From the NCBI GenBank assembly GCA_025358085.1, contig JANYKT010000026.1:1-43453 (forward strand): a stretch of DNA of 43,453 nucleotides, written 5' to 3'. Position 1 is the stretch's first letter, and the number at the start of each line of letters is the position of its first letter. The notes beneath the pieces were generated by a model, which had not been told where the DNA came from, searched no databases, and saw only the letters and a program-made list of their open reading frames with translations. A program made the translations under genes and the position numbers. Of the stretch, positions 29,488 through 42,280 are shown piece after piece. The stretch is from Deltaproteobacteria bacterium. GTDB taxonomy: Bacteria > Myxococcota > Myxococcia > Myxococcales > 40CM-4-68-19.

Positions 29488-32400
29488 ATGAAGCCTTCTG
29501 AGATCCAGCCGCTTCCCGAGAAAGGCAGCGCCACCGCTCTCGCGGAGCTGCTCGCCACCACGCCCACCGAAGCGCGCAAGGTCCGGGTGAGCGGACTCTT
29601 CGGCGCCGCCCGTGGCTACGCGCTCGCCCAGCTGAGTCGCCGCACGCGCCGGACGCTCGTCTGCATTGAACCGACCGAAGACGCGGCCGAAGCGCTCGAG
29701 CGCGACCTGCGCTTCTTCTTCGCTGCCGAGCCACCGGTCGGAGCCTCAAAAGCAAAGGCCCTGGACCGCCGTGGCCCAGACGCAATCGTCCGCCTGCCTG
29801 CGGACGAGGTGCTGCCCTATGAGGGCCTCACCCCGGACCGCATGGTCGCGCAGCAGCGCCTCGCGGGCCTCTTCCACCTTCACCTCGGCGACGCGCTCAG
29901 CGTCGTCATTCTCAGCGTCCGCGCGCTCGCGCGCCGCGTCCTGCCTCGCGCGGCGCTCGACGCCCGCAGCTTCCAGCTCTCGGTCGAGATGGAGCAGGAC
30001 CGCGACGAGCTGGCGGCCAAGCTCACCGCCGCTGGGTACGCACGGGTCCCGCTGGTCGAGGACCCGGGAACCTTCGCGGTTCGCGGCGGCGTCTTCGATG
30101 TCTGGTCGCCGCTCGACGCAGCGCCCGCCCGGCTCGAATTCTTCGGCGACCTGATCGAGAAGATCCGCGCTTTCGACCCGCAGACCCAGCGCACCGTGCG
30201 CGAACTGGAGCTGGTCTCGCTGTGTCCCGCGCGCGAGATCGTGCTCGACGAGCAGGGCCGCAAAGCGGCGGTCGCCACCGTGCGCGCCGCGGCCGACGCG
30301 GTCGAGACGCCGTCCCGCCAGCTGCGCGAGCTGATCGACGAGCTGCAGACCAAATCGCAAGACGACGAACTCTTCGCTGCCGGCCTCGCCGCGCTCCTGC
30401 CGGGGTTCTATCCCGGTGGCCTGTCGCCGATCACCGAATACCTGCCGAAGAACGCGATCTGGGTCCTCGATGATCCGCTCGAGCTGGAGCGGCAATGGAG
30501 CGAGCTCTGGAGCGCGCTCGAGGATTCTTTTGCCGACTCGCGGCGCAAGGGCGCGCTGGCGCTACCGCCCGACCAGCACTTTCTTCATGAGCGCGACGTG
30601 CGGCCCACGCTCGACCGCGCCAGCGTGCTGGAGCTCTCGGGTATTCAAATGCTCGACCTTTCGCGCGGCTCGACCGAAATCGACTTTCCGCTGCAGCCAA
30701 CAAAGGATCTCCGCGCCGAAATTCAAACCCATCACGGAGAAGATGGCGCGCTGCAGCCGCTCGTCCGGCGACTGGGGTCGCACCGCGAGCGCGGCACCGC
30801 CGCAGTGATTGCCTGCCACAGCTCCGCGCAGGCCGAGCGCACCAAGCGGCTCCTGCTCGACCGCAACTTGATGGCTCTCATCATTGAAGCCCTGCCCGAG
30901 GAGCCGTCGACTCTCTATAAACCCTCCACCCACGCTTTCCTGGTCGTCGGCGAGATCAGTGCCGGTTTCGTCGATCTTCATAATCGCTTCGCGCTGTATA
31001 GCGATGAAGATATTTTCGGTCCCCGCGCGCGCGCCCGCAAGACACCGAAGCGGCCCAAGACATTCGGCCAGGACGCGGCCGATTTCAAGGATTTGAAAGA
31101 GGGCGATCTCATCGTCCACATCGACCACGGAATCGCGCGCTATGACGGCCTGACCCGGCTGGCGGTCCGTGGCTTCGCGGCCGACTTCATCCTTCTGCAA
31201 TTCGCCGGCAAGGATAAGCTCTATCTGCCGGTCGGGCGGCTGCGGCAGATCCAGAAGTATGTCGGCGGCGATCCGGAGAAGGCGAAGCTCGATTCATTGA
31301 AGAGCCAGACCTTCCTGAAGCGGAAGGAGCGCGTCAAGCAGGAGCTGCTCAAGATGGCGGCCGAGCTGCTGGACATCCACGCCGCGCGCGCCGCCCACGA
31401 GGGCTTTGCTTTTGCCGCGCCCGACGCGATGTATCGGACTTTCGAGGCCGACTTCGAATTCGAGGAGACGCCCGAACAGGCCAGGGCAATTGAAGATGTT
31501 TTGAAAGACATGCAATCAAAGCAGCCAATGGACCGGCTGGTCTGCGGCGATGTCGGCTATGGAAAGACCGAGGTCGCATTAAGAGCCATCTTCAAAGCAG
31601 TGGAGGACAAGAAGCAGGTGGCGGTGCTGGTCCCCACGACCATCCTCGCCTCGCAGCATTACCGGACCTTTTCAAAACGCCTGAAGGATTATCCGGTCAT
31701 CGTCGAGATGGTCTCCCGCTTTCGCGATCCCAAAGACGTGCGCGAGGTGCTGAGGAAAACGCGCGAGGGCAAGGTGGACGTGCTGATCGGCACGCACCGG
31801 CTCCTGAGCGCCGATGTTGGATTCAAGGACCTGGGCCTGGTGGTGGTGGACGAGGAGCAGCGCTTTGGCGTGAAGCACAAGGAGCAATTAAAAAAGCTGC
31901 GCAAGCTGGTGGACGTCTTGACTCTGACCGCCACGCCGATACCACGCACCCTGCATATGTCGATGATGGGCATTCGCGACCTGAGCATCATCGGCACTCC
32001 GCCGGTTGACCGCAGGGCCATTCGTACCTTCGTCTCCAAGTTCGACGGCGGCACCATCAAGGAAGCGATCGAGCGGGAGCTGGCGCGGGGCGGGCAGGTG
32101 TTCTTCCTGCACAACCGCATTCAATCGATCGGCGGCGTCCACGAGTACCTCAGGAAGCTGGTGCCGCAGGCGAAGATCGCGGTGGCGCACGGGCAGATGG
32201 GCGAGCACAAACTCGAAAAGGTAATGACCGAGTTCATCGAGAAGCGCATCGACGTGCTGCTCTGCACCGCCATCATCGAGAGCGGGCTCGATATCCCCAG
32301 CGCCAATACCATCCTGATCAACCGCGCCGATACCTTTGGATTGAGCCAGCTGTATCAAATCCGCGGCCGCGTCGGACGGTCGCGCGAGCGCGCCTATGCT

Positions 32401-33185: not shown

Positions 33186-34193
33186 ATGAATCCGCGCAAA
33201 TCCCTGCTCCTCTGCGTCCCCTTGCTCGCCGCCATGGCTTGCGGTTCCAAGACCACCTCGTCGTCGCCGGCCAAGACCGGCGCGGTGGTAGCGACCGTCG
33301 GTACCGAGACCATCACCGCCGACGAGTTGAAGAAGCGCCTCGAGGAGACGAGCCCCTTCCTGCGCGCGCGCTACAACACGCTCGAGCGCAAGAAGGAGTT
33401 CCTCGACAACCTGGTTCGCAACGAGCTGCTCGCGCAGGAAGCGCGCCGCCAGGGCTTTGACAAGAGCCCCGCCGTCGAAGAGCAGACGAAGCGCGCCATG
33501 ATTCAGGAGCTGATCAAGCACCAGCTCGACGAGAAGCTGACTGGCGCGGACATCGCCGAGGCCGATTTGAAAAAGTTCTACGACGCGCACCAGGACGACT
33601 TCGTCAAGCCCGAGCGCGCGCGCGTTTTCCACATCCTCCTCGCGGCAAAGGACGCCAGGGAGAAGGTGGCTGTGCACAAGCAGGCCGTGGCGTTGCTCAA
33701 GGATATCGACGCTCGCGAGAAGAAGGGCGAGGTCAATGCCTTCCAGACCGTCGCCATGAAGGAGAGCAAGGACCAGCTCTCGGCGCCGATGGGCGGCGAC
33801 CTGCGCTTTCTCTCGAAGGACGAGCTGACCAAGGCCTACAATCCGGAGCTGGCAACTGCCGCATTCGACCTGAAGAGCCCCGGCGAGAAGGCCGGCCCGA
33901 TCGACACTCCGACAGGCGTCGAGCTGGTCAAGCTGCAGGTCAAGACGGTGGCGCTCAATCGCAGCTTCGATGAATCGAAGGACTCGATTCGCGGCCGCAT
34001 GGCCCGCGAGCGCCGCAGCCGCGAGTACGACGACTGGATCAAGAAGCTGCACGAGACCACCAAGATTTCCATCAATGACGCCGAGCTGGACAAGGTCCAG
34101 GTCGACGGCTCGGCGCAGCCCCCGGCAATGAACCAGCAGCAGCAGCTCCGCCCGGTCCCGGCACCCGCTGCTGCGAAGATTGGCGAGCGGTAG
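33186..34193 (+). CDS. PrsA/SurA-like parvulin lipoprotein
   Basis: 335 residues from ATG 33186, lipobox L-A-A-M-A-C (Cys 19). SurA-N-type helical region (about 35-120, with V-A-T-V-G-T-E-T-I-T-A-D-E-L) followed by a degenerate parvulin fold with H-I-L-L-A and G-G-D-L-R-F-L-S; the C-terminus is Gln/Pro/Ala-rich. Secreted peptidyl-prolyl isomerase or chaperone. First of three similar genes. The 3' end overlaps the reading frame of the next gene only if a TTG at 34180 is used. Confidence 0.85.
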   Translation: MNPRKSLLLCVPLLAAMACGSKTTSSSPAKTGAVVATVGTETITADELKKRLEETSPFLRARYNTLERKKEFLDNLVRNELLAQEARRQGFDKSPAVEEQTKRAMIQELIKHQLDEKLTGADIAEADLKKFYDAHQDDFVKPERARVFHILLAAKDAREKVAVHKQAVALLKDIDAREKKGEVNAFQTVAMKESKDQLSAPMGGDLRFLSKDELTKAYNPELATAAFDLKSPGEKAGPIDTPTGVELVKLQVKTVALNRSFDESKDSIRGRMARERRSREYDDWIKKLHETTKISINDAELDKVQVDGSAQPPAMNQQQQLRPVPAPAAAKIGER

Positions 34194-34206
34194 TAGAACC
34201 TCGCTG

Positions 34207-35202
34207 GTGAGCCGACTGACTTGCTGTTCCGGAGGAGGCCCAGGGCTCGCGCCCGGCCTCCTCCTGTTGATTCTGGCAGGCGCGGTGCCGCTGTCTTGCC
34301 GTGAGCCGCCCGCGCCGCCGCCGAAGCCGCCGCCTGCCGCCGCGCAGGTGAATGGCTTGCCGATCCTGGTGTCGCGGTTGCAGCTCGAGCTCGACCGGGT
34401 CCGGCGCCCGTCCGACGGCGCCGCGGCCACGCCCGGGCAGCCGCAGGATCTGGTCCGGCTCGCGCACGCGGTGCTGGATACGCTGATCGAGCGCGCCATC
34501 GTCGTGCAGCGCGCCAAGGCAGCGGGGCTCACCATCAGCGAGGCCGACGTGCAGCGCTCGACCGACGCGCTCGCGGACGACGCGCGCAAGGGCGGGCAGT
34601 CATTTGGCGATCGGCTGCGATCGGACGGGCAGACATTGGAAGCCCTCACCGAGGAGATGCGCGAGCGGCTGCTGGCAGAGCGTTATGTCGCCGAGCAGAC
34701 CCGGGCCGAGCACGCCTCGCCGGCCGAGGCGCGCGCCTGGTTCGACCAGCACCGCGCGGACTTCGATACTCCGGAAGAGGTGCACGCCCAGCAGCTGGTG
34801 GTCTCCTCGGCCGACGAGGCGAAGAGCCTGCTCGACCAGCTCCGCAAGGGCGCTCTGTTCGAGGACCTGGCGCGGGCGCACTCGACTTCGCCCGACGCGC
34901 GCGGCGGCGGCGACCTGGGCTGGTTTCCGCGCGGCAAGATGCCCCGCTCGTTCGACGATGCCTGCTTTTCGGCCAGCACCGGCAAGCTGTCGGGAGTGGT
35001 CGCCTCGCCGTACGGCTTCCACGTCTTCAAGGTGCTGGGAAAGCGGGGCCCGAAGCACCGCTCCTTCGAAGAGGTTAAACTTGAAGCAGAGCGGCAGGCA
35101 ACCGCGGAAAAACGCACCCAGGCCGAGCGGCAGCTGCTCGCCCAGCTGCGTAAGTCCGCCGAAATCCGCATCGACGAATCCTCCTTCGTCCTGCTCAAGT
35201 AG
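34207..35202 (+). CDS. Parvulin (PpiC) lipoprotein
   Basis: 331 residues from GTG 34207, chosen over TTG 34180 because it is outside the upstream gene and leaves a lipoprotein signal ending V-P-L-S-C (Cys 31). SurA-N-like front, then a clear rotamase domain (about 195-290): V-H-A-Q-Q-L-V-V, A-R-A-H-S-T-S-P-D, G-G-G-D-L-G-W-F, and Y-G-F-H-V-F-K-V. Outer-membrane or periplasmic folding factor. It is 13 bases after the first parvulin gene and 18 before the third. Confidence 0.88.
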   Translation: MSRLTCCSGGGPGLAPGLLLLILAGAVPLSCREPPAPPPKPPPAAAQVNGLPILVSRLQLELDRVRRPSDGAAATPGQPQDLVRLAHAVLDTLIERAIVVQRAKAAGLTISEADVQRSTDALADDARKGGQSFGDRLRSDGQTLEALTEEMRERLLAERYVAEQTRAEHASPAEARAWFDQHRADFDTPEEVHAQQLVVSSADEAKSLLDQLRKGALFEDLARAHSTSPDARGGGDLGWFPRGKMPRSFDDACFSASTGKLSGVVASPYGFHVFKVLGKRGPKHRSFEEVKLEAERQATAEKRTQAERQLLAQLRKSAEIRIDESSFVLLK

Positions 35203-35220
35203 CGAGGTAGAACGCAACTT

Positions 35221-36174
35221 ATGAAGCGAGCCGCCCTGTTTCTGTTGGTCCTGCCGCTGTCCGCGCGCGCCGAAATCAAGGAGCGCATCGCGGCGGTGGT
35301 GAACGGACAGCCCATCGCGCTGACCGATGTCCAGGAGCGGGTCGCGCCAGAGCTCCTGCGCCTGAATGGCCGCGGGATGGTGGGTCCGGTGCTGGACCAG
35401 CAGCGCCGTGACCTGCTCAAGCACGGCCTCGATCAGCTGGTGGACGAGAAGCTCGTGGAGAGCGAGGCCGAGGTGCTGGGCATCGACGTCCCCGAGGATG
35501 AGGTGCAGAAGCTGGTTTCCGAGCTCGCCAAGCAGAACGCCATGGACTCGGCGCAGTTTCGCGAGGCGCTGACCGGGCAGGGCATCGACTTCGAGACGGT
35601 GCGAGCCTCGCTCAAGCGGCAGCAGCTGATGCTCCGGCTGCTGCAATACAAGGTGAAGCCGCGCAAGGTGAGCGACGAAGAAGTGCAGTCCGCCTACGCG
35701 GCCATGGTGGCCGAGGGAGAGGCCGAAGTGCGCGCGCGGCACCTGTTCATCGCCGCGCCCGATGGTGCGCCGCCGCAGCAGCTGGAACGGGCCAAGCTGA
35801 AAGCAGAAGAGGCGCTGCGGCGCGTGCAGGCTGGCGAGAGCTTCGCTCTGGTCGCGCGCGATCTGTCCGAAGGGCCGGGTGCAGCCGAGGGCGGCGACCT
35901 GGGCTACTTCCGGCGCGGGCAGATGCTGCAGGCAATCGATCAGGCGGCGTTCTCTCTCAAGCCCGGCGAGACTTCGCAGCTCATCCGCAATGGTGGCGAG
36001 CACGGCGGCTACCACCTCGTGCACCTCGAGGACCGGCGCAAGATTGCCGCCAAGCCGCTGGCCGAGGTGCAGGAAGAGCTCCGCAACAAGATCTCGAACG
36101 AGTCGGTCCTCAAGGAGCGCGAGCACTACCTGGCCTCGCTCCGCAAGAGCGCGCAGATCGACCTGAAAATGTGA
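35221..36174 (+). CDS. surA: SurA-like periplasmic chaperone
   Basis: 317 residues with a Sec-type signal (M-K-R-A-A-L-F-L-L-V-L-P-L-S-A-R-A). SurA-N domain (I-A-A-V-V-N-G-Q-P-I-A-L-T-D-V, from about residue 24) and one parvulin domain (R-A-R-H-L-F-I, G-G-D-L-G-Y-F-R-R-G, G-G-Y-H-L-V-H-L). E. coli SurA has two parvulin domains and is longer; this one has one. It guides outer-membrane proteins to the BAM machine. The stop overlaps the pdxA start (GTGA), the same surA-pdxA order as in E. coli, which supports the name. Confidence 0.85.
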   Translation: MKRAALFLLVLPLSARAEIKERIAAVVNGQPIALTDVQERVAPELLRLNGRGMVGPVLDQQRRDLLKHGLDQLVDEKLVESEAEVLGIDVPEDEVQKLVSELAKQNAMDSAQFREALTGQGIDFETVRASLKRQQLMLRLLQYKVKPRKVSDEEVQSAYAAMVAEGEAEVRARHLFIAAPDGAPPQQLERAKLKAEEALRRVQAGESFALVARDLSEGPGAAEGGDLGYFRRGQMLQAIDQAAFSLKPGETSQLIRNGGEHGGYHLVHLEDRRKIAAKPLAEVQEELRNKISNESVLKEREHYLASLRKSAQIDLKM

Positions 36175-37067: not shown

Positions 37068-38204
37068 CTACTTGACGAGAGCTGCCGGAACGACTGCGGC
37101 GGCCGGCGGAACACCGATCGCAGGCACGGCGCTCTGAGGCACAGCGCGCGCGGGCGACACAACGGCAGGAGCTGCGACAACGGGCGATACGACAACGAGC
37201 GCTGCCGGCGCGGGGGCTACGAGAGCGGCGGGCGCAGGCTTCGACACAGGCGAAGGTTCGGCCCCCGCATTGCCCGTCCGGTCCAGCGCCGGGCCGAGAT
37301 CCCGGTTCTCTACCGCGTTGTAGTTGCCCTTGGTGGACTGCACCGAGATGGACGCGAGCGCCCAGGCCGAGCCCGGCGGATCACCTGGCCGCAGGCCGTC
37401 GCTGTCGACCCAGGTGGTCTCGACCTTGGCCGCCTTCTTCACCAGGTCCTTGAAAGCCTGGTCGGGATCTTCGGTGTGCGAGAACTCGTCGACGGACAGC
37501 CCGGTCGAGGTCTGCACCAGGAGCTCATACGCCTGGACGTGGCTGCGCAGCGAGGTCGCGAGGTTGTCAATCGCAGTGTCGCTCGCGTTTTGCAGAGCAT
37601 CCTCCGGTCGGAAAGTGGGGCCGCTGTATCCGGCCGCGAAGACCCTGGCCAGCGAGCGCGGAAGCTGGTCCAACCACGAGGGAGCGGCGGTCTTGCTGCC
37701 CGTGGTCCACGCCGCGGTGGTGGCCTGCGTGGACACGCCCTTGCCGCGGGCCGAGTCGACGTCGATGACCGCAAGCGCCCAAACCGAGCCTGCTTCATCG
37801 CGGGAGCCGGCCTCGTCCACCCAGGTGGCCTCGATGCGCGAATTTTGCATGACCACGTCCGACGCTTCCTTGTTGACCTGGACGGTGTGGTCGCGCGCGT
37901 TTGTCTCGACGTTTTCGCCGAGGAACTCAACGTGGCTGGCGAGGCTGAGCGCGAGCTTGCCGCGCGCGTCCTCCGCAGCATTGTTGAGGGCGTCCTGCGG
38001 CCAGTAGGTCGGGCCACAGCGGCCCACCGAAAAGAGCCGCCCGCGCGCGTTCTCAGGCAGCTTGTCCACCCAGACCGGTGTCGGGGTGGCCTTGGCTAGC
38101 GGGCGGCCCCAGCGATTGATCGGCTCCGCGGGCTTGCGCGGAATGCTCCCGCACGCGGCGAGGCACACGGGTGCAACAAGTGCGAGCAGACGAAACGACA
38201 CCAT
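37068..38204 (-). CDS. Tandem-LPP20 lipoprotein
   Basis: 378 residues, lipobox C-L-A-A-C (Cys 18). Two copies of an LPP20-like domain, about 40-165 and 180-300: each has P-x-W-x-D-x-L-P, then V/A-G-x-x-G-P-T-x-x-P-x-D-A-L-x-N-A, a helix with L-A-x-S-L-x-S-H-V, an E/T-T-W-V-D, and G-S-x-W-A-L-A-x-I. A Pro/Ala/Val tail of about 70 residues follows. LPP20 occurs in the H. pylori antigen and in FlgP, a Vibrio flagellar-rotor lipoprotein. This is an internal duplication. Last gene of a minus-strand set. Confidence 0.8.
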   Translation of the reverse strand: MVSFRLLALVAPVCLAACGSIPRKPAEPINRWGRPLAKATPTPVWVDKLPENARGRLFSVGRCGPTYWPQDALNNAAEDARGKLALSLASHVEFLGENVETNARDHTVQVNKEASDVVMQNSRIEATWVDEAGSRDEAGSVWALAVIDVDSARGKGVSTQATTAAWTTGSKTAAPSWLDQLPRSLARVFAAGYSGPTFRPEDALQNASDTAIDNLATSLRSHVQAYELLVQTSTGLSVDEFSHTEDPDQAFKDLVKKAAKVETTWVDSDGLRPGDPPGSAWALASISVQSTKGNYNAVENRDLGPALDRTGNAGAEPSPVSKPAPAALVAPAPAALVVVSPVVAAPAVVSPARAVPQSAVPAIGVPPAAAVVPAALVK

Positions 38205-38225
38205 GGGGGTTCCCCTCGAAACGAC

Positions 38226-38258
38226 CGCGGGCCGGCCAATTCGATTGGCCGACCCGCG
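38226..38258 (-). terminator. Strong hairpin between two LPP20 genes
   Basis: CGCGGG (38226-38231) and CGGCCAAT (38233-38240) pair with ATTGGCCG (38244-38251) and CCCGCG (38253-38258), with one mismatch and a 3-base loop. On the minus strand it follows the 38335 gene and is followed by GTCGTTTCG, a weak T-run. Possible terminator or attenuator ahead of the tandem-LPP20 gene, whose start is 22 bases beyond. Confidence 0.5.
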
Positions 38259-38293
38259 AACAACTGTACCAGTGCTGGATGCCCTTAAGCTAT

Positions 38294-38337
38294 GGAGCCG
38301 CTACGGAGCCGCTACGGAGCCGCCATGGAGCCAGTTA
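38294..38337. repeat. Four 11-bp tandem units after an LPP20 gene
   Basis: GGAGCCGCTAC occurs twice without change (38294-38304, 38305-38315), then GGAGCCGCCAT and GGAGCCAGTTA. The last unit covers the stop codon of the minus-strand gene at 38335. The 11-base period is close to one helical turn. Confidence 0.75.
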
Positions 38338-38925
38338 CGGGGCCGGCTGCCCGGCGGCGTTGTGCTTGGCTTCTTCGGACGAGAGCTCGTCGAAGGCCTT
38401 GTCAGCGTTGGCGCGCACGGCGTCGCGAACCTTGGCGTTCAGCTCCTTCATCTTGTCGAGACCGTTCTTGAACTGCTCCATGTCGAGCTGGGCCAGCGCG
38501 TACTCGGTGCCGTCGTTGTCGACCCAGTGGTCGACGATGGGCGCGCCCGAGAGCTCCATCTGCGAGTACGTCTTCAAGGCCTGCGAGACGTGCTGCTCTT
38601 CGCTGGAGGCGCTCATGTCGCCGGCCGTGGTGGACGCCATGTAGTCCTTGTTGAGGACCGAGACATAGGTGTCCAGTGTCTTGGCGATTTCCGCGCGCGC
38701 GCGGGAATCAGAGGTCGAGCGGCTCATGGCCCGGTTGCGAATGCCGCTCGCGATGCCGACGCCGTAGAAGACCTTGCCCTTCTCGCCACCGAAGGCGCCC
38801 GAGCCGCGGTTGACCCAGTCAGGGCCGTTCGCGTGCAGGATCTGGTTTGACATCTGGGGCTTGCTGTCGCCGCCGCAGGCAACCATCGCCAGCGTCGCAA
38901 TCGCCATTCCGAGAATCTTCTTCAC
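38335..38925 (-). CDS. LPP20-family lipoprotein
   Basis: 196 residues. An earlier GTG at 38931 lies directly on the GGAGG ribosome site (38932-38936); GTG 38925 stands 6 bases from it and gives M-K-K-I-L-G, so I choose it. Lipobox M-V-A-C (Cys 17). One LPP20-type domain (about 30-165): P-D-W-V-N-R, F-Y-G-V-G-I-A-S-G-I, a long helix with A-R-A-E-I-A-K, and D-H-W-V-D-N-D-G-T-E-Y-A-L-A-Q-L. Single-domain relative of the neighbouring genes. Confidence 0.85.
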   Translation of the reverse strand: MKKILGMAIATLAMVACGGDSKPQMSNQILHANGPDWVNRGSGAFGGEKGKVFYGVGIASGIRNRAMSRSTSDSRARAEIAKTLDTYVSVLNKDYMASTTAGDMSASSEEQHVSQALKTYSQMELSGAPIVDHWVDNDGTEYALAQLDMEQFKNGLDKMKELNAKVRDAVRANADKAFDELSSEEAKHNAAGQPAP

Positions 38926-38981
38926 TTGCACCCTCCGTTGCCGCGGCGGTTTAGGCCGTCGCGAGATTGATTTATTTGCAG

Positions 38982-40082
38982 CTAGAGACCGGTATTTTCC
39001 TTCGCTACCAGCGCTGCCGCAAGTTCGTTGCCTGCATTGATTCCCGCTTCGCTCGCTGCTGCCTGCTGCGCTGCCTCGGGAGTGCGCCCGACTCCCTTGG
39101 CCTGCTTCTGCGAGGACGCGACCACCGCGCCGCTCCGGGCATCCATAGCCCGGACGTCCAGCGAGGCATTCGCGGCCACTTGTGAGAACACCCTACCACC
39201 TGGCGTTGCGATTGCTTTGACGACGATCACCCAGGGCATCCCGTCGCTCTTGGCCTGCGCCATCGCCGCCGCTTCGTCCGTCGATGCCGCGGCGCTCGCG
39301 CTGAAGCCCTTGGCCGAGAGAGCCTGCATCACGGAGCCTGCGACCCAGTCGGGCGCAATCACGACCGCGCGGCGCGCCCGGCTCTGGACCTGCGCCGCCG
39401 CGTCCTCCGCCACCTGGCGCAGCCGGCCCGAGGTGGAATAGTCCTTGTCGCCGGTGGCGATGTTGGCCGCGAGCGGCTTCATCTGCGCAACGACATCGCG
39501 ATAGCGAACCAGCGCGGCGAGCAAGTTGCCCTGCTTCTCCTGCGCCTGCGCCTCGCGGAGCCGCGCCAGCGCCGAGGAAGCGGTCTGTTTGGCCTCGTCG
39601 TCCTGCCGCGCCCGCTCCCGGGCGATCTCGACCTTGGGCAGCTTCAGCAGCACCCAGACGTCGTAGCGGTCGATGGTGCCCGAGCCCGACTCGCGCGAGA
39701 TCTTTTCGTAGTAGACGTCAGCGAGCTCGGCCGAGCGGATCACGGCCTGCGCGCGGCTGCGGATCTTGTCCGAGGCCTTGTTCTCGGACTCCTCGGTAGA
39801 CATGACGTCGTTGTGCTCGGCGCTGATCTCCACGCCGATGTATTGCGCCGCCTGGTCGCGCGCGGCGGCCATGGCGGAATCCTTGCCCTCGTCGAGCGAG
39901 GCGGATCCTTCCTTGGCGCCGGTGAAGTAGAGCGCATCCGCGTCCTTGGGCGCACGCGCCATCCAGGCGGGCGCCTTCGGCGAGCTGCTGGTCTTCACCG
40001 CCGCGAGCTTCTCCGGTCCGCACGCCGCCGCACCAAGGGCCAGCGTGGCGGCGGCGAGGAGCGCCGAGCGGCTACTTGCCAC
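38982..40082 (-). CDS. LPP20/FlgT-like lipoprotein
   Basis: 366 residues from GTG 40082, which overlaps the end of the CsgG-type gene by 11 bases; upstream frame does not give a signal peptide, this start does (L-G-A-A-A-C, Cys 21). N-terminal part (about 35-155) is LPP20-like: P-A-W-M-A-R-A-P, L-Y-F-T-G-A-K-E-G and D-V-W-V-L-L-K-L-P. A charged coiled region (about 160-215) and a C-terminal domain (about 240-360) with V-I-V-V-K-A-I-A and V-R-A-M-D-A-R-S-G-A-V follow; the latter is of the type seen in FlgT and CsgG-associated proteins. Envelope-located, role unknown. Confidence 0.78.
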   Translation of the reverse strand: MASSRSALLAAATLALGAAACGPEKLAAVKTSSSPKAPAWMARAPKDADALYFTGAKEGSASLDEGKDSAMAAARDQAAQYIGVEISAEHNDVMSTEESENKASDKIRSRAQAVIRSAELADVYYEKISRESGSGTIDRYDVWVLLKLPKVEIARERARQDDEAKQTASSALARLREAQAQEKQGNLLAALVRYRDVVAQMKPLAANIATGDKDYSTSGRLRQVAEDAAAQVQSRARRAVVIAPDWVAGSVMQALSAKGFSASAAASTDEAAAMAQAKSDGMPWVIVVKAIATPGGRVFSQVAANASLDVRAMDARSGAVVASSQKQAKGVGRTPEAAQQAAASEAGINAGNELAAALVAKENTGL

Positions 40083-41064
40083 CGGCGGCCTCGGTCGACG
40101 AAGTCTGCTCGGCCAGCCTTTTCGCGTCGTCCTGCAGGCGCTTGATGTTGTCCAACTCGCCCAGCATGTCGCGGTCATTCGACATGGTGTAGGCCTTGTT
40201 GATCATATCATTCGCCTTGGCGTAGTCGCCCGCGTACTCGTACGAGAGGCCCAGGTTCCAGTAGCCCTTGGCGATCTGCGCCGGCTTGAGCTTGAGGTTC
40301 TTCTCCGAGTCGGCGACGGTCTGGTTGAAGCTGTCTTGCGCTTTCTTCCAGTCGCCCCGCTCCGCCCAGCCGATGCCGCCTTCGAGCTGCGGCATGTCCC
40401 CGTCCTTCTGGAAGCTCGCGGTCATGTATTCCTGGTGCGGCACGATGGCCTTCATGAAACGGGCCAGGACCGCCTCACGCGCCTGCTTCTCCAGCGACGC
40501 GCGATCGATGGGCGACGGCATCTTGTTGTAGCCGCGGTTGGTGTCGTCGCGGCGCTCCTCATAGGTCTTCGCGATCACCAGCCGGCCCGTCGAGACATCC
40601 ACTACTTTGAAGGTCGCGCGCTCGATCAGTTCGCCGTGCAGTTTGTGGATGGTGGTGACGTTGCCCTTGTCGTCCTTGGCGCTGTCCTGCGAATTTTCCT
40701 CGCGGTAGGTCTCGCTGGCGTCGCCGAAGATCATGGCTCCGGCGGTGACCACCCTGCCAAGCTTGGCGGCCTTGGCCGGGTCGGCCAGGTCCGTGGAAGA
40801 GAGCTGCAGCTCAGACAGGACCTTGTCCATATGCGTTCGGTCAACGACGCTGAAGCGCTGTGAGGCGACCAGCGACTCCTCCAGGCCAGCCGACAGCGGA
40901 CCGTTCGCGTTGCCGGTCATCCCGCCGATGGCAACGCTGGCGTAGGGCGCCATGTTGATCTCGGCGGGCTTCATGACCGGCACCCGGACCTGAACGGTGC
41001 CGCAGGCGCACAAAGCGGGGAGCGCGCAGACAATCGCGCAGACATGCAAAGAGAGATTTTTCAT
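40072..41064 (-). CDS. CsgG/LpoB-type lipoprotein with TPR tail
   Basis: 330 residues, lipobox A-L-C-A-C (Cys 21). CsgG-type core: Y-A-S-V-A-I-G-G-M, L-S-A-G-L-E-E-S-L, R-F-S-V-V-D-R-T-H-M-D-K-V-L-S-E-L-Q-L, and A-G-A-M-I-F-G-D-A. This is the fold shared by CsgG, FlgO and LpoB. The last 90 residues have two TPR-like helices pairs (A-K-G-Y-W-N-L-G-L-S-Y-E-Y-A-G-D-Y-A-K-A). No curli genes are near. First gene of the minus-strand set, divergent from another CsgG-type gene. Confidence 0.85.
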   Translation of the reverse strand: MKNLSLHVCAIVCALPALCACGTVQVRVPVMKPAEINMAPYASVAIGGMTGNANGPLSAGLEESLVASQRFSVVDRTHMDKVLSELQLSSTDLADPAKAAKLGRVVTAGAMIFGDASETYREENSQDSAKDDKGNVTTIHKLHGELIERATFKVVDVSTGRLVIAKTYEERRDDTNRGYNKMPSPIDRASLEKQAREAVLARFMKAIVPHQEYMTASFQKDGDMPQLEGGIGWAERGDWKKAQDSFNQTVADSEKNLKLKPAQIAKGYWNLGLSYEYAGDYAKANDMINKAYTMSNDRDMLGELDNIKRLQDDAKRLAEQTSSTEAAGGK

Positions 41065-41209
41065 GAGCGATATCCCCGCAAAGACGGTCGAGTGAGGGTA
41101 CGATCGCTAACACCCTGAATAAGCAAGGGTCAATGTCCAAGTGCCCGTGGCCGCTTGCGGCCGCCTGTCTGTCACGGTAGCAGGAAGCACCGTCCGTTCA
41201 CGAGGTTCC
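41065..41209. promoter_or_regulatory. Divergent intergenic region between two CsgG-type genes
   Basis: ACCCT (41112-41116) and AGGGT (41126-41130) form a short inverted repeat. On the minus strand TTGACC (41128-41133) would be a -35 for the lipoprotein operon, but the -10 at the right distance (TTAGCG) is poor. No clear plus-strand promoter was found. Confidence 0.25.
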
Positions 41210-42280
41210 ATGCGCATTCTTTCTCTAGCCCTTGCCTCCTCACTCGCTGCCAGTGCCGCGCAGCCCGACCCGCAGCACACCGTGGCCATCGGCGCGATCG
41301 ACGCTCGCGGCGGGGCAACGGCCGAGGACGCGGCCGCGCTGAATGATGCGCTCACCTCCCAAATTGTAAATGACGGCCGGCTGCGTCTGGTCGAGCGGCA
41401 GCAGATGGCGAGGGTCATGAAGGAGCAGGCGCTCTCGCAGACGGGCGCGATGACCGACGAGGTGCAGGTCAAGCTCGCGCAGCTGGTCGGCGCGCGGTGG
41501 ATCGCGGTGGGCGCTGTGCAGGGCAGGGGCAAGGGCCTGACTCTTTCGCTGCGCGCCATTGACTCCTCCACCGCGCAGGTAGTCTCGGCCGAGACGTTGA
41601 AGATCGGCAGCGCGGACCAGCTGGACGCCGGCGCGCGCCAGCTCGCCCGCAAGTTGGAAGACAAGTTGGTCGGCTCCGCGGGCGGTCCGGCCTCGGGTGC
41701 AGCCTCGGCCTCGGCGGACGTGGTCGGCGACTTCGATATCGGGCAGGTGAAAGACGCCGCACGGGACCTCGCGCGGTCGCTCTCCGTGCGCTTCCCAAAG
41801 ATCTCCGGCAAGCTCGTCGACACCCTGCCCGACGGCACCGCCACCTGCTCGTTCGACAAGTCGCAGCCGTTTGCGGGTCAATTCTTCGAAGTCAGCGGCC
41901 ACGACGAGGTGACCGAGAGCGAGAAGAAGAAGGGCTTCTTCGTGCTGCGCAACATTTCGGCGACCGGCTGCGGCGGGAAGCTGAAGCGTGACGGACCCGG
42001 CGAGATCTCAGCGGGCGACGCGCTGGCTTCGATGCCGATCAAGATCTCTTTCGCGCTGCTCGAGGCGGGCGAAGGTGCGCAGCCTGAGTTGGCGAAGCTG
42101 CTCTCGGAGGGGACCCGCAGCGCGCTCAAGACCACGCCGCAGTTCAGCCTCACCGAGCAGGGCCAGCTCACCGCGCAGGGCCGCGTGTCGGGCCCGCGCG
42201 GTCACCGCGTGGTCGAACTGCAAGTCGTCGACAAGAGCGGCAACGTGGTGCAGCAGCTCGAGCTGTCCGGCTCGTACTGA
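41210..42280 (+). CDS. CsgG/FlgO-type secreted protein
   Basis: 356 residues from ATG 41210 with a signal peptide (M-R-I-L-S-L-A-L-A-S-S-L-A-A-S-A) and no lipobox Cys. CsgG-type region (about 20-165): T-V-A-I-G-A-I, L-N-D-A-L-T-S-Q-I, R-L-V-E-R-Q-Q-M-A-R-V-M-K-E-Q, and W-I-A-V-G-A-V-Q-G. The second half is unassigned, with C-S-F-D-K-S-Q-P-F, F-F-V-L-R and a C-terminal strand V-E-L-Q-V-V-D-K-S-G-N-V. Faces away from the lipoprotein set; convergent with ychF, 18 bases between stops. Confidence 0.78.
   Translation: MRILSLALASSLAASAAQPDPQHTVAIGAIDARGGATAEDAAALNDALTSQIVNDGRLRLVERQQMARVMKEQALSQTGAMTDEVQVKLAQLVGARWIAVGAVQGRGKGLTLSLRAIDSSTAQVVSAETLKIGSADQLDAGARQLARKLEDKLVGSAGGPASGAASASADVVGDFDIGQVKDAARDLARSLSVRFPKISGKLVDTLPDGTATCSFDKSQPFAGQFFEVSGHDEVTESEKKKGFFVLRNISATGCGGKLKRDGPGEISAGDALASMPIKISFALLEAGEGAQPELAKLLSEGTRSALKTTPQFSLTEQGQLTAQGRVSGPRGHRVVELQVVDKSGNVVQQLELSGSY

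Follow-up and report, generated by a model that had tools for sequence, protein, structure and literature searches.

What would a cluster of CsgG- and LPP20-type envelope proteins do in a bacterium whose own genome yields no FlgI, CsgE or CsgF? Lipoproteins of the LPP20 and LpoB types are mostly known from work on flagellar rings, Helicobacter pylori antigens or PBP1b of Escherichia coli. The question arises at positions 37068-42280 of a 43,453-nt contig from a soil-type deltaproteobacterium of the phylum Myxococcota (JANYKT010000026.1; the whole contig is called the window), where an original prediction, made from the letters of the window, described five neighboring genes for secreted or lipidated proteins as an outer-envelope set untied to flagella or curli. 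That observation holds: all five open reading frames (ORFs) are present when the sequence is read, export signals and conservation support them, and FlgI, CsgE and CsgF are absent from the genome. We put the chances at about even that this island is a lineage-specific variant of an LPP20-LpoB lipoprotein cluster, with envelope or peptidoglycan maintenance by an outer-membrane-anchored complex as its most likely role. Its identity as a form of that cluster is well supported; its mechanism we infer.

Four of the genes lie co-directionally on the minus strand in the order D, C, B, A, and each encodes a lipoprotein with a lipobox. Gene D (40072..41064), at the head of the presumed operon, has a CsgG/LpoB-fold domain and a C-terminal tetratricopeptide repeat (TPR) region; gene C (38982..40082) combines an LPP20-like (SHS2) N-domain, a helical linker and a PelC/FlgT-M-like C-domain; gene B (38335..38931) has a single LPP20 domain; and gene A (37068..38204) has tandem LPP20 domains and a Pro/Ala-rich tail. 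The divergent gene E (41210..42280, plus strand) opens at ATG 41210 with an ordinary Sec signal peptide that lacks a lipobox, followed by an LpoB/CsgG-N-fold domain and a C-half without assignment. We corrected the start of C from the ORF start at 40178 to a GTG at 40082, which overlaps the stop codon of D, and the remaining gaps are 50 bp between C and B and 130 bp between B and A. This overlap and these short gaps give an operon-like arrangement, and D, C, B and A probably form a single operon. Both promoters presumably lie in the D/E intergenic region (41065..41209), where a promoter scan returned no sigma-70-like match. No Rfam elements were found in the window.

A neighborhood comparison found this arrangement kept beyond the window's genome. 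The comparison covered 12 genomes of the window's Myxococcota family and 195 genomes of the phylum; the relatives that were named are all metagenome-assembled 'Deltaproteobacteria/Myxococcales' genomes, and distant loci were read as stop-to-stop ORFs together with hidden Markov models. Divergent E followed by D, C, B and A occurs in 11/12 family genomes, including G004, whose contig ends inside A, and the twelfth (G010) has D and B only. A sister-family genome (G036) holds D, C, B and A in order with E absent, and a single more distant genome (G165) again carries D and C. In those family genomes where the flanks are visible, the island is bordered by pdxA, surA and mfd next to A and by ychF next to E. 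B is the most conserved of the five, at about 80-88% identity across the family, and its ratio of nonsynonymous to synonymous polymorphism (pN/pS) against two relatives is 0.23-0.33, with values of 0.39-0.55 for the other four genes. All five are genuine, conserved genes on which purifying selection acts. At one locus (L062), the latter half of A, a run of X with unrelated sequence, is an assembly-gap artefact and was not used.

The evidence that places the island in a wider cluster comes from the rest of the phylum. B is the widest member, found in 49/195 genomes at an E-value of 1e-5 (43 of them judged strong); D was found in 19/195 at 1e-12 and C in 18/195 at 1e-5. In distant orders, the gene order is B, A, a trypsin-like protease, E, LpoB, a lipoprotein of ~450 amino acids and an LPP20 protein of ~550 amino acids, with A, E and the last protein present in some genomes. 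The protease stands between LPP20 and LpoB in many of the distant Myxococcota clusters (L118-L131). B directly follows rpoA-rplQ in several distant-order genomes, and locus L131, whose canonical LpoB scores 125 bits, shows the full rpsM-rpsK-rpsD-rpoA-rplQ run. The genes beside distant B copies had been guessed by size to be flagellar FlgB, FlgC, FlgH and FlgI; this was rejected, as they encode S13, S11, S4, RpoA and L17. Distant families (L131, L132, L136) again have E, B and A as a group, and relatives of the same order carry either an LPP20 gene, LpoB, the ~450-residue lipoprotein and a long LPP20 gene, or the LpoB and ~450-residue pair alone. An LPP20 gene of the B profile and a canonical LpoB gene lie no more than 6 kb apart in 18 of the 25 genomes that have both; in the other 7, they are mostly on separate contigs. 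Our literature search found nothing on CsgG with LPP20 or on FlgO/FlgP with LpoB, and this cluster of LPP20 plus LpoB lipoproteins is widespread but little-studied.

The island thus has an LPP20 orthologue within a conserved multi-lipoprotein gene cluster, and it has neither the canonical LpoB nor the ~450-residue lipoprotein. Both are absent from the 12 family genomes except for one contig of G004, and the family carries C and D in their stead. That 6.5-kb contig (G004:C541, locus L166) holds the sole LpoB and ~450-residue pair of the family and may be contamination or a real remnant. The ~450-residue lipoprotein (~460 residues in the distant cluster), for which one scanned member gave no Pfam family, may belong to the Cj0089/HP0018 family of Campylobacter and Helicobacter. 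We aligned copies of it from L118, L120, L122, L127, L131, L156, L161-L163 and L167 (alignment A6).

Copies related to B and D also occur apart from the island. A diverged second LPP20 paralogue of B, about 33% identical, was seen at G000:C180:8701-9195 (L052), at G003:C58 (L164) and in other family genomes; in G000, G002 and G007 a stop codon falls within the match, and the two loci checked (L052 and L164) have no adjacent LpoB or ~450-residue gene. Second D-like genes of about 40% identity are found at L044, L048, L049 and L050 (genomes G009, G006, G008 and G002), with no clear B or A adjacent.

The domain types assigned in the original prediction largely stand. B matches the LPP20 profile PF02169 at 26.6 bits (cut-off 25.9), which together with its lipobox makes it a single-domain LPP20 family member, and a PDB sequence search with it gave a single meaningful match, H. 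pylori Lpp20 (5ok8, E-value 0.0024). The first repeat of A reaches 18.4 bits, under the same cut-off; A and B match by profile (5.7e-9), and the second repeat of A groups with the first in a tree. C has no Pfam match, and a PDB sequence search with it gave chance matches only. Its N-half aligns with B (hhalign, 1.7e-4), and its structural model (predicted local distance difference test score, pLDDT, 84) begins with a sheet-and-helix domain like that of LPP20, continues with a helical stretch and ends in a PelC-like C-domain, the latter matching PelC in Foldseek at 3.1e-4 with a template-modeling (TM) score by target of about 0.6. Against FlgT (3w1e), the whole C model gives a Foldseek E-value of 7.3e-5 and a probability of 1.0 across the full length, but a TM score of 0.27; as modeled, the likeness of C to FlgT is at the domain level rather than a single rigid shared fold. 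The description of C as LPP20 plus a FlgT-like C-domain is supported in that sense. The count of four LPP20-type domains in three genes was likewise right, though only one of them passes the Pfam threshold.

These repeated domains had been taken to imply local duplication, which is true of A and not of the split between A and B. A tree built from 47 LPP20 domains, whose bootstrap is not fully settled, groups the family's B copies with those of distant orders (98/93), apart from the A-type domains; it joins the two repeats of A (97/98) and leaves single-domain A-types outside this pair. This grouping argues that the doubling in A is lineage-specific and that B and A are old paralogues. The split between B and A is ancient, predating the spread of the two types through the phylum, and only the internal doubling of A is recent. 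The branch leading to C is very long, and its placement is unsure.

D bears out the prediction of a CsgG/LpoB domain with TPR: it matches PF03783 (CsgG) at 33.7 bits (cut-off 20.8), PF13036 (LpoB) at 22.8 bits (cut-off 22.3) and TPR profiles in Pfam. For E, proposed as CsgG/FlgO-type, the CsgG part stood (PF03783 at 31.1 bits, about half of the domain covered) and the FlgO part did not (PF17680 at 13.9 bits against a cut-off of 22.6). E matches D by profile (6.3e-8) and E. coli LpoB in a PDB sequence search (E-value 0.0018). Both proteins fall far under the LpoB equivalog cut-off of TIGR02722 (110.6 bits), D at 25.3 and E at 24.0. The model of D (pLDDT 83) has CsgG as its top Foldseek match (3.3e-6), with GNA1162, LpoB, HpaA, LptE and FlgT matching nearly as well; this is a fold shared among lipoproteins and identifies no function on its own.

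Could D and E nonetheless form a pore for protein export like that of CsgG, joined by accessory lipoproteins, as their Pfam scores and the top Foldseek match of D might suggest? CsgG inserts two amphipathic transmembrane beta-hairpins, and neither protein offers such a pair. Measured against a CsgG comparison sequence, the first hairpin of D is CsgG-like in length but 33-45% charged, compared with 17% in CsgG; the second is 21-28 residues long, compared with 36, is 32-57% charged and has no hydrophobic face; and E has no membrane hairpins. The best alternating-face hydrophobicity of D's first hairpin does overlap that of CsgG, and only charge and the second hairpin separate the two. CsgE and CsgF are absent from all family genomes (0/12), and GNA1162, LpoB, LptE and FlgT fit the fold of D nearly as well. 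A CsgG-type pore is therefore not supported, and we regard an export function as highly improbable. A non-flagellar ring or collar of FlgP/FlgT-like and CsgG-fold lipoproteins, serving for example a type IV pilus, gliding machinery or an exopolysaccharide exporter, is unlikely but deserves more weight. FlgP has the LPP20/SHS2 fold (PMC12222027), the C model is like FlgT when taken one domain at a time, and its C-domain recalls PelC, a dodecameric ring lipoprotein. The whole-length agreement between C and FlgT is poor, however, and the island is flanked by pdxA, surA-type genes, mfd and ychF, with no pilus, gliding or Pel gene. The beta-hairpin with which ring formation correlates in this fold was also not seen in the C model, which has a disordered loop and a helix at that place; the B-C sequence alignment reaches as far as this loop.

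The same fold resemblance could make the set a flagellar accessory module of FlgO/FlgP/FlgT-like outer-ring parts, and FlgI does occur in two family genomes (G008 and G009). FlgI is absent from the other 10/12, the window's own included, and these carry the island or its D and B core, which largely refutes a flagellar role. The FlgO profile falls short, the genes identified next to distant B clusters encode ribosomal proteins, RNA polymerase, a protease and LpoB and are not flagellar, and H. pylori keeps an unchanged motor when Lpp20 is deleted (PMC11756786). An association of B with FlgI across the phylum is weak; it should not be dismissed but cannot explain the island in genomes that lack FlgI, and we hold a flagellar module to be improbable. 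Because the set is present with or without flagella, envelope maintenance is more likely than the building of flagellar rings, and is most likely the better account than curli export as well. It is also conceivable that the lipoproteins are functionally separate and held together by operon inertia: G010 retains D and B only, G165 shows D and C only, and D-like paralogues stand alone elsewhere. The recurrence of E, B and A together in distant families and a gene order kept across genera speak for a joint role, and inertia is rather unlikely.

Comparison with characterized systems is in line with a variant LPP20-LpoB cluster. In Campylobacter jejuni, Cj0089-Cj0090-Cj0091 form a co-transcribed lipoprotein operon whose LpoB homologue, Cj0091, is mainly in the outer membrane (PMC3100323). 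In Helicobacter, HP1457 is homologous to LpoB and Cj0091 and adjoins the homologue of HP0018 in many enterohepatic species; HP0018 is itself the homologue of Cj0089, its loss leads to hypervesiculation, altered shape and less helical cells, and MltD and AmiA were pulled down as its candidate partners (PMC11394524). Assays detected interactions of Lpp20 (HP1456) with FapH and with FlgP, yet deleting it changes neither motility nor the motor (PMC11756786). The island resembles Cj0089-Cj0091, HP0018 and HP1454-HP1457 as operons of small envelope lipoproteins of the LPP20 and LpoB types, the Campylobacter operon including a TPR lipoprotein of ~450 residues, and B has Lpp20 as its best PDB sequence match; it differs in having C and D instead of LpoB and the ~450-residue protein, a tandem LPP20 in A and a divergent E. 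With the Myxococcota clusters at L118-L131 it shares B, A and E by profile homology, and B and A by tree grouping, but it is without the protease, LpoB and the ~450-residue lipoprotein and sits at a different site, with pdxA/surA on one side and ychF on the other. FlgP, Lpp20 and FlgT have the SHS2 fold in common, with an additional beta-hairpin as the correlate of ring formation (PMC12222027); the island shares this LPP20/SHS2 fold with Vibrio FlgO/FlgP/FlgT and Campylobacter FlgP/FlgQ, with C FlgT-like at the domain level, yet it occurs without flagella. The N-domain of D and E have the fold of E. coli LpoB, but its UB2H partner was not detected, and D shares the Pfam domain of E. coli CsgG but adds a TPR region.

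We suggest that D, C, B and A would be made together from one operon, exported and anchored by their lipids, with the outer membrane's inner leaflet as the probable site, and that E would be a soluble periplasmic partner from the divergent gene. Contacts among the LPP20 (SHS2) domains, found in A, B and C, and the LpoB/CsgG-fold domains, found in D, E and C, may assemble the proteins into a periplasmic complex attached to the outer membrane. D would occupy the place that canonical LpoB has in related clusters, its TPR arm free for partner binding, and the complex would serve the envelope as a regulator or a brace, with peptidoglycan synthases or hydrolases as the most likely route, and would not secrete. 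Class A synthases are present, and several transglycosylase-domain genes occur in every family genome. A more specific version, that D with the FlgT-like C replaced the LpoB and ~450-residue pair and yielded a rewired envelope regulator without the UB2H dock of PBP1b, is speculative and on balance unlikely.

Several findings weigh against this account of an LPP20-LpoB envelope complex. A sister-family genome holds both the island and an LpoB and ~450-residue pair, an overlap that leaves strict replacement unsupported, and the assignment of the ~450-residue protein to Cj0089/HP0018 draws only on size, lipobox and adjacency to LpoB. FlgI is found in 18/43 genomes with strong B matches and in 31/152 others (Fisher p 0.009, with no correction for kinship). 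For the UB2H dock of PBP1b, the window's genome gave no match outside Mfd, which weakens the LpoB route, though a diverged UB2H could escape such a search; the E. coli PBP1b-LpoB mechanism therefore cannot simply be transferred.

Two observations concern the neighboring genes. The UB2H-like match of this genome, at 29980-30108, lies within mfd and not in a penicillin-binding protein; such matches were rejected as support for PBP1b, since most sit in Mfd-sized frames of ~1200 residues in many genomes. Between mfd and pdxA, at 33186-36174, three consecutive genes form a periplasmic-chaperone triplet kept within the family; the third is SurA/PpiC by Pfam, and copies of the first two in relatives resemble SurA/PpiC.

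In this lineage, then, LPP20- and LpoB-type lipoproteins appear as a conserved gene cluster in bacteria that mostly lack FlgI. The B-type LPP20 travels with LpoB across the phylum, which makes a non-flagellar role for these proteins in the envelope testable, with the partners named.

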